Notes under the pieces: generated by a model
What the model was told of the DNA's origin: nothing
The model's input: only the letters and a program-made list of their open reading frames with translations
Database searches by the model: none
Shown here: positions 51,489 to 59,723 of the stretch, one piece after another
How the letters are laid out: every line of letters starts with the position of its first letter
Position numbering within the stretch: the stretch's first letter is position 1
Position numbers and translations under genes: made by a program
Virus record (IMG/VR): IMGVR_UViG_3300008261_000020
Span: 1 to 59,803 of that record
Source: a virus
Direction: 5' to 3' (one strand)
DNA length: 59,803 bases

Positions 51489-51971
51489 GGAAAAATTTTA
51501 TTCAGATAATAGTAGTGTGGGGGCTATATACCGGTTCTGCGTGGCGGGACCCGAACCGAAAGTGACTTTTTTTTGAGGGGGTGGGGGTCGCTTTTCGTCC
51601 GACCCTCAGCAAATTTTTGGCTTTTTGCCGTGGCAATTGTCCCCGTCCCCGTTCCCCATCCCGTATTCGCCCCTCCTTTGTTCGTTCTACGTCCCCCGTC
51701 CCGTTCAAGGTCCCACGTAATTCGCCCCCGTTCCCCCGTCTGTAGTGTCTTTGAAGACACAAAGCAAAGAGAGTAAGGAGGCTGACCCCGTCCCTTTTCC
51801 CCCGTGCTTAAACTTTCCGCCCAATTTCCCCACGCTGAAACCCTTTGTTTATCAATACTTTACAAAAATCTTTCCCTATTCAAAAAAATATTTGTAAAAA
51901 AATTTGGTAATGTCAAAAAGTTAGACGAGATTTGTCAAATAATTAATCAATCACTATTAAAATTTTAAACA
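51489..51971. other. non-coding divergent region with a C-rich tract
   Basis: Between two divergent genes. About 51530-51850 is strongly C/T-rich on the plus strand (repeats of CCCCGTCCC and TTCGCCCC types), unlike the rest of the AT-rich genome. It contains one near-palindrome (51745). Minus-strand ORFs here have low-complexity Gly/Thr/Arg sequences and are not convincing. After 51850 the sequence is AT-rich up to the ATG at 51972, where a degenerate -7 box (GAGATTTG) may serve the right-hand operon. No convincing RNA gene was found. Confidence 0.4.
51745..51760 (+). repeat. 16-bp near-palindrome, copy 8
   Basis: GTGTCTTTGAAGACAC in the C-rich non-coding region. Confidence 0.8.
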
Positions 51972-52663: not shown

Positions 52664-52714
52664 TCCGTCCGAGAGTGATTACTCTCGCTGATGAGTCCAA
52701 TAGGACGAAACGGA
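52664..52714 (+). ncRNA. hammerhead ribozyme-like RNA 1 (type III)
   Basis: Stem III: TCCGT (52664-52668) with ACGGA (52710-52714), including the A15.1-U16.1 pair. Cleavage nucleotide C17 = 52669 (GUC). Stem I: CGAGAGT/ACTCTCG with loop GATT (52670-52687). Core CTGATGA (52688-52694). Stem II: GTCC-AATA-GGAC (52695-52706). GAAA at 52707-52710. All conserved core residues are present. Predicted cut is between 52669 and 52670, 65 nt upstream of the amidoligase ATG, leaving the ribozyme in its leader. Confidence 0.85.
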
Positions 52715-53681: not shown

Positions 53682-53730
53682 CCGTCTCAGCGTGTGTACG
53701 CTGACTGATGAGCTCAAAAGAGCGAAACGG
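53682..53730 (+). ncRNA. hammerhead ribozyme-like RNA 2 (type III)
   Basis: Stem III: CCGT (53682-53685) with ACGG (53727-53730). C17 = 53686 (GUC). Stem I: TCAGCGT/ACGCTGA with loop GTGT (53687-53704). Core CTGATGA (53705-53711). Stem II: GCTC-AAAA-GAGC (53712-53723). GAAA at 53724-53727. Stems I and II differ in sequence from hammerhead 1 but keep pairing, i.e. covariation. Predicted cut 53686/53687. Confidence 0.85.
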
Positions 53731-53876: not shown

Positions 53877-54028
53877 AACAATCAAATTCACTGAACGTCC
53901 TTTACTTAGTCATCATCCTTTGTATGTTCATCTTTGGGCTCACCTTGACCTCTTGCGGTACGCAAGGGTACGGGTGCAAGGGGAACCAATCTTGGAACAC
54001 TATGGTAAAGCGAATCAACCGAGGTTAA
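53873..54028 (+). CDS. small lipoprotein
   Basis: 51 residues. A hydrophobic signal peptide (LYLVIILCMFIFGLTL) ends in LTSC, a lipobox with Cys28 as the lipidation site, then YGCKGNQSWNTMVKRINRG. The GCKGxxSWxxMVKRINR ending resembles small Bacteroidota lipoproteins I recall from host genomes. Could be an outer-membrane lysis or superinfection factor. Its stop TAA lies in stem I of hammerhead 3. Confidence 0.6.
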   Translation: MKQSNSLNVLYLVIILCMFIFGLTLTSCGTQGYGCKGNQSWNTMVKRINRG

Positions 54029-54077
54029 CTGACGAGTCTTGAGTAGACGAATCGGGGGCATTGCCCCCGACTTAACC
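54023..54077 (+). ncRNA. hammerhead ribozyme-like RNA 3 (type I, variant)
   Basis: Stem I: GGTTAA (54023-54028) with TTAACC (54072-54077). Core CTGACGA (54029-54035; N7 = C is allowed). Stem II: GTCT-TGAGT-AGAC (54036-54048). GAA at 54049-54051. Stem III: T + CGGGGGC-ATT-GCCCCCG + A (54052-54070). C17 = 54071. The normal A15.1-U16.1 pair is U-A here, so the cleavage triplet is GAC and activity may be reduced. The predicted cut leaves 19 nt before the ATG at 54091. Confidence 0.7.
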
Positions 54078-54090
54078 AAACCAAATTACA

Positions 54091-54288
54091 ATGACGCTAA
54101 AAAAATCGTACGCTTTTGACTATGACAAATCACTTGTTGAGTTCTTGAATCAGAAGGGAATCAAGACCATCACCGGTGACGCTGACATCACGCTGATTGA
54201 ACTTGAGGTATTGGGCGGGTACAACGATACCCCGTTCATTGACCTCATCCTTGAGTTCAGTGCGTGGCTGAGGCACAATCAAGGTTAA
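54091..54288 (+). CDS. small hypothetical protein between two hammerheads
   Basis: 65 residues. LKKSYAFDYDKSLVEFLNQK, then KTITGDADITLIELEVLGGY and FIDLILEFSAWLRHNQG. A small alpha/beta fold, unrecognised. Its ATG follows hammerhead 3 by 13 nt and its stop TAA lies in stem I of hammerhead 4. Confidence 0.6.
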   Translation: MTLKKSYAFDYDKSLVEFLNQKGIKTITGDADITLIELEVLGGYNDTPFIDLILEFSAWLRHNQG

Positions 54289-54334
54289 CTGATGAGTCTT
54301 GAATAGACGAATCCCCCTTCGGGGGGACTTAACC
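54283..54334 (+). ncRNA. hammerhead ribozyme-like RNA 4 (type I, variant)
   Basis: Stem I: GGTTAA (54283-54288) with TTAACC (54329-54334). Core CTGATGA (54289-54295). Stem II: GTCT-TGAAT-AGAC (54296-54308). GAA at 54309-54311. Stem III: T + CCCCC-TTCG-GGGGG + A (54312-54327). C17 = 54328. Stem III is entirely different in sequence from hammerhead 3 yet pairs perfectly, and the U15.1-A16.1 swap is repeated. The predicted cut leaves 19 nt before the ATG at 54348. Confidence 0.7.
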
Positions 54335-54505: not shown

Positions 54506-54536
54506 TTGGCGATGTCGAATTAATGTCGTACCTTTG
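54506..54536 (+). promoter_or_regulatory. promoter for the amidotransferase gene
   Basis: -33 TTG (54506-54508), 20-nt spacer, -7 TACCTTTG (54529-54536). Matches the Bacteroidota TTG-N19/20-TAnnTTTG consensus. Transcription would start near 54543, upstream of a near-palindrome in the leader. Confidence 0.6.
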
Positions 54537-54603: not shown

Positions 54604-55707
54604 ATGTGCGTAATCATTATCAAACAGAAGGGGAAACTGCTACCCAAGGAGGTCGCCAAGACCTCGGGCAGAATCAATCCACACGGGTTGGGAATTATAT
54701 GGTTGGATACCTTTGAGGTTGCCTACCATAAGTCGTCTGAGTACAAGGTATTGGACACAGAGCGTCCGTTCATTGCACACTTTCGTTATGCCACCATTGG
54801 TGCGGTAAACAAGGAGAATACTCATCCGTTCAGATGCGGTGCGAATCGCAACGAATGGCTGATGATGAACGGGACCATCGCTAAGTTGGGTGATGCCAAG
54901 AAGAGTGACTCAAGGGTTCTTGCTGAATCGTTGGGTGACATACCACGTCACACGTGGAAGAAGGAGTTGGAGAAGTACGATAGCAGGTTCGTGACAATCA
55001 ACACACGTAACCGCACGTATCAGATATACAACAGAGAGTTGTGGACACAGAGGGATGGGATATGGTATAGCAAGAACAATGTACTTGAGGATAATTTGGT
55101 TGCCGTGTATGGCACACTGAAGAAGGGGTATAGCAATTACAATCGGTTCCTAACCTCATCCAAGCACGTTGGCAAGGGACACACCGAGGACAAGTACCCG
55201 CTTATCATCAAGGGTTTACCCTACCTTCTTGAGATGAAAGGTATCGGGCACAATGTTGAGGTTGACGTGTTCAAGGTGAGTGATGTTGTGGTGAAGGAGT
55301 TGGACGCACTTGAAGGTCATCCCTTTTGGTATTGCAGAAAGCAGATACCTATCAAGATGAAAGATGGGAGGGTTCTTACGTGTTGGATATACTTTAATCT
55401 TGCCGAGAAGTACAAGGGCGAAGAGGTCCACGAGACATACACTCAGACGTTTAGCTTCATAAGTGAAGCTAAGAGTAAGAAGTGGTGGGAAGAGGATGCT
55501 GAGGAAGTATTGGAGGCTGAGCGTATAATTGGTAAGCAGTTATACCTTGACGAGTTCATTGACGATGATGAGTTCGATGTGAAGAATGAGAAGCCCGTCT
55601 GTATAAATTGTTTTCACGACCTTGAGTTCGATGGGTTCAGTAACTTTCATTGCAGTGGGTGTAATGATTGGTTCTCAGAGAACGAGGTTCTAAAGTATAG
55701 TGCATAG
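54604..55707 (+). CDS. class II glutamine amidotransferase fused to gamma-glutamylcyclotransferase (AIG2-like)
   Basis: 367 residues. The ATG at 54604 puts Cys at residue 2 (MCVIII), the N-terminal nucleophile of class II amidotransferases; GIIWLD, RYATIGAVNKENTHPF and MNGTI support that domain (about 1-160). A GGCT/AIG2 domain follows with the signature VAVYGTLKKGYSNYNRFL (about 165-182) and ALEGHPFWYC. Residues about 332-355 (CINCF...CSGCNDW) form a four-Cys zinc ribbon. With the amidoligase gene upstream this fits a known gene neighbourhood for synthesis or processing of gamma-glutamyl-type peptide bonds. A GTG at 54565 is in frame but would bury the nucleophile. Confidence 0.8.
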   Translation: MCVIIIKQKGKLLPKEVAKTSGRINPHGLGIIWLDTFEVAYHKSSEYKVLDTERPFIAHFRYATIGAVNKENTHPFRCGANRNEWLMMNGTIAKLGDAKKSDSRVLAESLGDIPRHTWKKELEKYDSRFVTINTRNRTYQIYNRELWTQRDGIWYSKNNVLEDNLVAVYGTLKKGYSNYNRFLTSSKHVGKGHTEDKYPLIIKGLPYLLEMKGIGHNVEVDVFKVSDVVVKELDALEGHPFWYCRKQIPIKMKDGRVLTCWIYFNLAEKYKGEEVHETYTQTFSFISEAKSKKWWEEDAEEVLEAERIIGKQLYLDEFIDDDEFDVKNEKPVCINCFHDLEFDGFSNFHCSGCNDWFSENEVLKYSA

Positions 55708-55720
55708 TGATTAGGTTTAC

Positions 55721-55744
55721 CTCCGAGCGTTTCCACGCTTGGAG
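55721..55744 (+). other. 10-bp hairpin upstream of tRNA-like RNA 1
   Basis: CTCCGAGCGT-TTCC-ACGCTTGGAG pairs over 10 bp (one G-U). TTTAC flanks it on both sides. It precedes the tRNA-like structure by 4 nt and follows the amidotransferase stop, so it may be a terminator-like or protective hairpin; no U-tract follows. Confidence 0.6.
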
Positions 55745-55748
55745 ATTT

Positions 55749-55802
55749 ACACGGGGTGCAGAATGGTCTGTCAAGTGAAGGGTTCGATTCCCTCCCCGTG
55801 TG
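55749..55802 (+). ncRNA. tRNA-like RNA 1, lacking an anticodon arm
   Basis: An 8-bp acceptor-like stem: ACACGGGG (55749-55756) with CCCCGTGT (55794-55801). A D-arm-like hairpin GCAG-AATGGT-CTGT (55758-55771) contains the GG expected to contact the T loop. A 7-nt linker replaces the anticodon arm. T-arm AGGG-TTCGATT-CCCT (55779-55793) has a typical T loop. Acceptor plus T stem total 12 bp, as in tRNA. Discriminator G55802; no CCA encoded. Only 19 nt separate it from the next ATG. Could be processed by RNase P or RNase Z. Confidence 0.65.
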
Positions 55803-56052: not shown

Positions 56053-56065
56053 TTTTAATAAGGCG

Positions 56066-56081
56066 GTGTCTTCAAAGACAC
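56066..56081 (+). repeat. 16-bp near-palindrome, copy 12
   Basis: GTGTCTTCAAAGACAC between the 76- and 56-residue protein genes. Flanks GGCG...TGCC extend the dyad to 9 pairs (one G-U), different bases from copy 9 but still pairing. Confidence 0.85.
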
Positions 56082-56110: not shown

Positions 56111-56281
56111 ATGTTATCAGAACAAGAAAGACTAATGTTATTGCAAGGCACAATTGATAGAATCCTCTACCTATCCGACAATGATAGGGAGGAGTTCCTT
56201 AACTACTTAGAGACACTCTATACCCTCTATCCTATACCAAAGAAGATAAGATATGGTGCTGAAATTTTCAATGAGGAGTAA
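56111..56281 (+). CDS. small helical hypothetical protein (56 aa)
   Basis: MLSEQERLMLLQGTIDRILY then LSDNDREEFLNYLETLYTLY. Helical hairpin-like. Its stop TAA lies in the loop of a 5-bp hairpin (56273-56286) preceding tRNA-like RNA 2. A GTG at 56066 is in frame but coincides with the palindrome. Confidence 0.6.
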   Translation: MLSEQERLMLLQGTIDRILYLSDNDREEFLNYLETLYTLYPIPKKIRYGAEIFNEE

Positions 56282-56286
56282 TCCTC
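56273..56286 (+). other. hairpin containing the stop codon, upstream of tRNA-like RNA 2
   Basis: GAGGA-GTAA-TCCTC; the TAA stop codon is in the loop. It ends 1 nt before the tRNA-like acceptor stem, which parallels the hairpin before tRNA-like RNA 1. Confidence 0.5.
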
Positions 56287-56287
56287 A

Positions 56288-56330
56288 GACTGCGATGGTC
56301 TCAGTTCGGGTTCGACTCCCGATGCAGTCC
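56288..56330 (+). ncRNA. tRNA-like RNA 2, minimal (acceptor stem plus T-arm)
   Basis: Seven-bp acceptor-like stem: GACTGCG (56288-56294) with TGCAGTC (56323-56329, last pair G-U). Five-bp T stem TCGGG/CCCGA with loop TTCGACT (56306-56322). An 11-nt linker (56295-56305) starting ATGGTCT replaces the D and anticodon arms; tRNA-like RNA 1 has the same ATGGTCT. The 7+5 bp stack and T loop are exactly those of a tRNA minihelix. Discriminator C56330; 18 nt to the next ATG. Confidence 0.65.
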
Positions 56331-56348
56331 TCATCAAATCAAATCAAA

Positions 56349-56573
56349 ATGCAAGTTTACAGAATCAACACAACAGCCTACGAAGAAGAAGACTTTTATC
56401 TATTAACTGACCTTACAGAGCAAGACATTGTTGAGGTAATCAATCCACTTGTCATGCAAGAGCGTGACGGGTACGAAGAGTATGACAATGACATACTTTT
56501 AAACGCCCTAAAGAAACGTTTTCACAAGGCAAAAATCTTTATGTTCACAGACTTTGAAACATTAACATTCTAA
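56349..56573 (+). CDS. small acidic hypothetical protein (74 aa)
   Basis: QVYRINTTAYEEEDFYLLTD then TEQDIVEVINPLVMQERDGY. Alpha/beta, similar in feel to small phage proteins with unknown function. Leader CAAATCAAATCAAA follows tRNA-like RNA 2. Confidence 0.6.
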   Translation: MQVYRINTTAYEEEDFYLLTDLTEQDIVEVINPLVMQERDGYEEYDNDILLNALKKRFHKAKIFMFTDFETLTF

Positions 56574-59441: not shown

Positions 59442-59723
59442 ATGGCAGAGCAAAAAGAAAAAACATTTGCAGATGGGTTCGTATTCAAGAGAAGAGAAGA
59501 CGCACCCGACTTCGTAGTTGGCAGAGTATCTGTTAAGGTGGACGAAGCCATCGCATTCCTACGTAACCATCAGAAGAATGGTTGGGTTAACTTGGACGTG
59601 AAGACTGCACGTAGTGGTAACTACTATATGGAGCTTGACACATTTGAACCAAAGGCTAAGGGTGAGGCGAAGCCTGAGCCAAAGGCTAAGAAAGAAGAGA
59701 TAGAAGAGAATCTTCCGTTCTAA
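59442..59723 (+). CDS. single-stranded DNA-binding protein-like (small, acidic tail)
   Basis: 93 residues. FADGFVFKRREDAPDFVVGR then VSVKVDEAIAFLRNHQKNGW and VNLDVKTARSGNYYMELDTF form an OB-like beta pattern. The end EENLPF resembles the acidic C-terminal peptide of SSB that binds partners. Placed after the recombination pair, where phage SSB-like genes often lie. The family is not certain. Confidence 0.65.
   Translation: MAEQKEKTFADGFVFKRREDAPDFVVGRVSVKVDEAIAFLRNHQKNGWVNLDVKTARSGNYYMELDTFEPKAKGEAKPEPKAKKEEIEENLPF

Follow-up and report, generated by a model that had tools for sequence, protein, structure and literature searches.

A tRNA-like minihelix family in phage mRNA leaders, exchanged with hammerhead ribozymes: a candidate processing site for host tRNA enzymes

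The viral DNA analysed here (the window: all 59,803 nucleotides of IMG/VR record IMGVR_UViG_3300008261_000020) carries, in the gap that separates one gene's stop codon from the following gene's ATG, an element that is built like the acceptor/T-arm half of a tRNA and belongs to a family of minihelices found in many phages; in the leaders of the same genes of related phages, minihelix and hammerhead ribozyme take each other's place. The family and this exchange are the new observations of this study. We consider it probable that the minihelix acts in cis as a site at which host RNase P, and perhaps RNase Z, process a polycistronic early transcript of the phage.

The minihelix and its surroundings

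The element, termed TLS2, lies in the following context:

56272..56287, + strand: hairpin TGAGGA-GTAA-TCCTCA, from the fold of the leader; contains the TAA stop codon (56279-56281) of upstream gene 56111-56281
56288..56330, + strand: TLS2, tRNA-like minihelix, identified by sequence, fold, covariance model matches, covariation and conservation in L006
56288-56294 / 56323-56329, + strand: acceptor of 7 bp, GACTGCG/TGCAGTC, with one G-T pair
56295-56305, + strand: linker ATGGTCTCAGT, 11 nt, with GG
56306-56310 / 56318-56322, + strand: T-stem of 5 bp, TCGGG/CCCGA
56311-56317, + strand: T-loop TTCGACT
56330, + strand: discriminator-like base C, directly 3' of the acceptor
56331..56348, + strand: A-rich leader TCATCAAATCAAATCAAA, preceding ATG 56349
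56349..56573, + strand: gene 3' of the minihelix, 74 aa; in relatives the leaders of its homologs hold a minihelix, a hammerhead-like element or nothing

Read 5' to 3', TLS2 runs GACTGCG, ATGGTCTCAGT, TCGGG, TTCGACT, CCCGA, TGCAGTC and C, with 18 nt between position 56330 and the ATG. The sequence-only reading had described a minimal acceptor/T-arm minihelix of 7+5 bp with a TTCGACT loop in a leader, preceded by a hairpin that includes the stop codon; all of these parts are present, and RNAfold predicts exactly the 7+5 bp arrangement (−15.6 kcal/mol). The stability itself is unexceptional (27 of 200 shuffled sequences fold equally well in RNAfold; z about −1), and as weak evidence it was left unused; what is exceptional, unlike stability alone, is the combination of features in TLS2, which has the 7-bp acceptor on a 5-bp T-stem and the 7-nt T-loop TTCRANY of an acceptor/T-arm minihelix.

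TLS2 is neither a tRNA gene nor a ribozyme of the hammerhead type: ARAGORN and Rfam find no tRNA gene (anticodon arm, cloverleaf) in the window, the linker being just 11 nt long; none of the 4227 Rfam models matches TLS2, either by gathering score or with E as high as 5; and the hammerhead core (CUGANGA...GAAA, three-helix junction) is absent from 56288-56330. A 3' RCCA, helpful and not strictly required for RNase P, is not encoded, the 3' flank reading C-TCATC in the window and N-C-[TAG] in most other family members. At pair 3-70 the window has C-G, and across the family 36 of 38 cells are C-G or G-C and none is G-U; the alanine identity element G3-U70 is therefore absent, and an alanine-type minihelix was ruled out. 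Neither gene 56349 nor gene 52735, to which we return below, receives an annotation from Pfam or PHROGs.

A larger tRNA-like element, TLS1, lies upstream in the window:

55720..55746, + strand: hairpin 5' of TLS1; L006 has a different sequence with the same pairing
55749..55802, + strand: TLS1, with acceptor, D-arm-like hairpin GCAG-AATGGT-CTGT and T-arm, without anticodon arm

As had been read from the sequence alone, TLS1 and TLS2 have ATGGTCT and the near-identical leader CTCATCAAAT in common; the GG inside this ATGGTCT may be able to form the D-loop/T-loop contact of a tRNA elbow (G18-U55, G19-C56). The further proposal that the two are a local pair, reduced or expanded independently, found no support in this form: minihelices of 42 nt make up a separate and widespread family, the nearest matches of TLS2, leader included, lie in other phages (L182, L322 and L354), and the leader similarity extends across these phages generally, regardless of the preceding element; A-rich leaders in the style of 56331..56348 also follow hammerheads and hairpins. 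In close relatives, TLS2 is kept with the same gene order in L005 and L006, and in L006 it differs by two linker bases and nothing else, its pairing intact; TLS1 is identical in L006, even though that phage has lost most of the gene behind it.

A recurrent minihelix family

We searched 80 related phage contigs, found via the glutamine amidotransferase/GGCT gene 54604-55707. A strict scan (7+5 bp, T-loop TTCRANY, linker of 8-14) gave five matches in 1.48 Mb, all five on the coding strand, against 0-2 on both strands of shuffled sets. A relaxed scan, for which six of seven acceptor pairs sufficed and the linker sequence was ignored, gave eight distinct matches, every one on the + strand; although these were chosen regardless of the linker, all eight carry GG 1-2 nt 3' of the acceptor strand. 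The covariance model R1, built from four 42-nt members, found 13 matches in 1.5 Mb of relatives, again exclusively on the + strand (13/13). Among relatives only, we counted 44 double-change cells compared with 12 after shuffling, counts that are biased towards pairing because the covariance model selects for pairing.

The form of about 42 nt recurs in many phages, with stems that vary freely yet pair, a tRNA T-loop and a D-loop-like GG after the acceptor. A pattern of GGTCT plus T-loop was used in viral contigs, and many of the matches among those listed are minihelices before a start codon; one such pattern occurs in just 39 stretches of 257 Gb of bacterial and archaeal genomes. In a set of 90 matches picked by a pattern blind to acceptor sequence, 20 of those listed have at least six of seven acceptor pairs at the fixed offset, where permuted sets average 1.9 and reach 7 at most. 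Across 41 distinct sequences, 181 double-change cells stand against 56 ± 6 in shuffled alignments and at most 35 when slid. These compensatory changes in the stems show that it is the structure of the minihelix, and not its sequence, that is under selection.

Further minihelices precede a start codon in L107, L110, L125, L134, L157, L164, L173, L182 and L354, and some phages hold several copies: three identical ones in L209, five in the L170 record. The ATG of an open reading frame of at least 40 codons lies within 60 nt in 28 of 35 examples, compared with 8 of 35 on the opposite strand and 30% of random positions; about one fifth of the wider set has no nearby ATG. The Streptococcus phage copies (Javan288, L389) sit in a noncoding stretch preceding the terminase genes and not before a start codon, and the class thus extends beyond Bacteroidota phages and beyond start-codon sites. 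In that stretch (L389, 2954-3225), two minihelices and a tRNA-like element stand in tandem; the equivalent of the last of this series in pneumococcal phage phiARI0462 is annotated as tRNA-OTHER. A conserved C at position 74, considered as a mark for RNase P, was discarded: most members have C, many have T, and the window has T.

So far, acceptor/T-arm minihelices have been known from laboratory work, as substrates, and from the proposal that they were an early form of tRNA; to our knowledge, no recurrent natural family of them with a fixed genomic place had been recognized, and the literature searched, which took in few subscription papers, yielded no published description of a phage minihelix leader.

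Exchange with hammerhead ribozymes at genes without their own promoters

Four hammerheads lie in neighbouring leaders of the window:

52664..52714, + strand: type III hammerhead, leader of gene 52735; Rfam RF00008 47.9 bits (gathering 48.5), E 1.8e-7; predicted cut after 52669
53682..53730, + strand: type III hammerhead; Rfam RF00008 40.7 bits (gathering 48.5), E 2e-5; predicted cut after 53686
54023..54077, + strand: type I hammerhead-like ribozyme, leader of gene 54091; U15.1-A16.1, GAC^ site
54283..54334, + strand: type I hammerhead-like ribozyme, leader of gene 54348; U15.1-A16.1, GAC^ site

Hammerhead cores with stem II occur 133 times on the coding strand of the 80 relatives and never on the other strand, at 62 loci, and L025 has two hammerheads above the Rfam gathering score. 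The two type I elements of the window have the unusual U15.1-A16.1 and the cleavage triplet GAC instead of GUC; type I hammerheads of L006, L023 and L024 have a normal pair in place of U15.1-A16.1.

The leader of gene 56349 holds the minihelix in the window, L005 and L006 and a hammerhead in L015; in L017, L019, L020, L021, L026 and L083 it holds hammerheads whose stem II is weakened, six variants that a simple hammerhead scan misses and that were found by reading the leaders. All seven hammerheads and variants follow a GTGTC hairpin and precede the A-rich leader. Ten of 19 relatives have neither element before this gene, and processing is therefore not essential there. The exchange recurs before gene 52735, where nine phages including the window have a hammerhead, three (L017, L034 and L074) a minihelix, one (L064) an element of the D-arm type, and 27 of 64 a simple hairpin only. 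Neither element was found in the recombination-operon leaders (SAK, 0 of 64; EXO, 0 of 73; g57757, 0 of 73) or in the leaders of g56778 (0 of 28).

Promoters are distributed differently. The Bacteroidota promoter motif is TTG-N17-23-TAnnTTTG, and the window has one instance of its −7 part in a leader without a cleavage element:

54529..54536, + strand: TACCTTTG, Bacteroidota-type −7 promoter motif, upstream of gene 54604

This motif, which points to a Bacteroidota host, lies at most 150 nt from gene 54604 in 50 of 81 leaders (background 2.7%), and none of the 81 holds a minihelix or hammerhead. It was found in none of the leaders of gene 52735 (0 of 70) or gene 56349 (0 of 19), nor in any of 16 minihelix, tRNA-like or hammerhead leaders examined. 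The elements therefore sit at genes that depend on read-through transcription, where cutting a long message makes sense.

Other structures accompany these leaders. Near-palindromic GTGTC..GACAC hairpins stand in window leaders at 51743, 52642, 53648, 54563, 56064 and 59394, six in the early region, among them:

56064..56081, + strand: GTGTC..GACAC hairpin

In other leaders such a hairpin is often found just 5' of a cleavage element, and other phages swap it as a block for other palindromes (GTGTCGTTAACGACAC in MW202828, GTCTCTTTGAAGAGAC in L034); these hairpins are perhaps stabilisers of 3' ends. A third leader element combines a stem AACTGN/NCAGTT, then GAG-N7-CGAA together with a short stem that covaries, then a hairpin followed by C; this three-way junction resembles a hammerhead but lacks CUGANGA, and its outer stem and leader are those of minihelices in the same phages. 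It occurs on the − strand in L134 (1008-1053 and 1572-1615) and L173 (83-128), and further in L373, L427, L450, L458, L464, L470 and L498; it is possible that it represents a new or altered ribozyme. A larger tRNA-like element, AGTCAGG..CCTGACT (L012, 13660-13815), is directly followed by a likely H-type pseudoknot, GCCTCAG/CTGAGGC, both sides of which are changed in L062 (GCCTTAG/CTAAGGC). It occupies the leader of a gene resembling window 59442-59723, 3' of the annealing-protein and exonuclease genes, and has equivalents in L008, L009, L013, L016, L017, L019, L020, L022, L026, L030, L062 and L083; a pseudoknot likewise precedes T4 gene 32.

A processing role, its alternatives and related systems

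We propose the following mechanism. TLS2 folds as the acceptor/T-arm half of a tRNA, and the GG of the linker may contact the T-loop in the manner of a tRNA elbow; host RNase P would cut on the 5' side (A56287|G56288), and RNase Z, possible as second enzyme because the window element encodes no CCA, might cut on the 3' side, after C56330, leaving the A-rich leader 56331..56348 as the presumed 5' end of the message. The upstream message would be freed with its 3' end closed by the stop-codon hairpin, and the downstream message would start at or just after the minihelix and the A-rich leader. Host enzymes acting on the minihelix would thereby do the job of the cis-cutting hammerheads in equivalent leaders of the same or related phages. 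The proposal builds on the structure, conservation, position and orientation of the minihelix, on its exchange with hammerheads and on the missing promoters, all documented above; from these the cleavage, the enzymes and the benefit are inferred. That TLS2 has the parts recognised by RNase P, as proposed from the sequence alone, agrees with what is known of the enzyme: in bacteria it makes its contacts with the acceptor and T-stems and can bind without the remainder of the tRNA (PMC11221534). Phage M3 RNA, C4 RNA and T4 gene 32 mRNA are known substrates (PMC11143913), and an earlier proposal has prophage hammerheads dividing long transcripts into messages for single genes (PMC3088659). The main points against a processing role are the lack of an encoded 3' RCCA and the many relatives without any element; the family members far from an ATG, the noncoding location of the Streptococcus phage copies and the ordinary stability of the fold also count against it.

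It is unlikely, in our estimate, that the minihelix is an uncut structural leader, staying on the mRNA and protecting its 5' side or aiding ribosome binding as a stable hairpin would. Among leaders of the genes concerned, many do hold a plain hairpin (27 of 64 at gene 52735), and a type III hammerhead likewise leaves an mRNA with a folded 5' end; however, any stable hairpin would serve this purpose, yet the tRNA-specific parts (TTCRANY loop, GG 1-2 nt past the acceptor, 7+5 bp) are conserved, and the exchange with self-cutting ribozymes is left unexplained. That exchange is equally unexplained if the minihelix were a regulatory mimic, bound by a synthetase, CCA-adding enzyme, tRNA modification enzyme or phage protein that controls downstream translation. 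We regard this as less probable still: several tRNA enzymes bind acceptor/T-arm minihelices (PMC11221534), but acceptor sequences vary freely among family members, and the alanine identity element and CCA are missing.

The start-codon placement and the one-for-one exchange with ribozymes indicate a role in cis, which makes us doubt strongly that the excised minihelix is itself the product, a small stable trans-acting RNA that might, for instance, serve host tRNA enzymes or tRNA-targeting defences as a decoy, even though some phages, L209 and the L170 record among them, carry multiple copies. Descent from a decayed tRNA gene or an attachment-site fragment would account for the tRNA-like T-loop and acceptor; we rejected it as extremely improbable. 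Covariation extends to both strands of the acceptor, the linker follows a consensus of its own, several copies occur per genome and the elements are sense-only in relatives; moreover, an attachment-site fragment would carry the 3' half only, and the 5' acceptor strand, checked for lost pairing, remains paired in the close relative L006.

The proposed processing role has parallels in known systems. In mitochondrial tRNA punctuation, tRNA structures mark the cuts between messages, made by RNase P and RNase Z; full functional tRNAs are used there, whereas the phage minihelices are stubs without anticodon. The hammerhead clusters of phages and prophages (Perreault et al. 2011, PMC3088659) share leader positions and phages with the minihelix, but they self-cleave, whereas the minihelix lacks a ribozyme core and would need host enzymes. 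Among non-tRNA substrates of RNase P, phage M3 RNA, P1/P7 C4 antisense RNA, T4 gene 32 mRNA and plant-virus tRNA-like ends (PMC11143913) are likewise phage or viral RNAs cut by the host enzyme; these are single cases, whereas the minihelix is a recurrent mRNA-leader family of about 42 nt with conserved T-loop and GG, interchangeable with hammerheads. Engineered RNase P minihelices (pATSer, MD1 and relatives; PMC11221534) also stack acceptor and T-stem into 12 bp, but are laboratory constructs, whereas the phage minihelix is natural, encodes no CCA and has a D-loop-like GG linker. Theta ribozymes beside phage tRNAs (PMC10879173) likewise combine ribozymes and tRNA structures in RNA processing by Bacteroidota and Bacillota phages; they are HDV-like and proposed to trim tRNA 3' trailers, whereas the minihelix sits in mRNA leaders.

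On balance we lean, by a little, towards a broader view: that phages of several host phyla share an unrecognised class of natural tRNA minihelices, exchangeable leader cassettes that would use host tRNA-trimming enzymes to cut messages and that would be equivalent to, and swapped with, self-cleaving ribozymes. If an enzyme substrate and a ribozyme can stand in for one another at a given gene, selection would act on the cut and not on the cutter; the exchange would offer a direct test for the old question of why phages have so many hammerheads, and the minihelix would be a compact natural processing tag.
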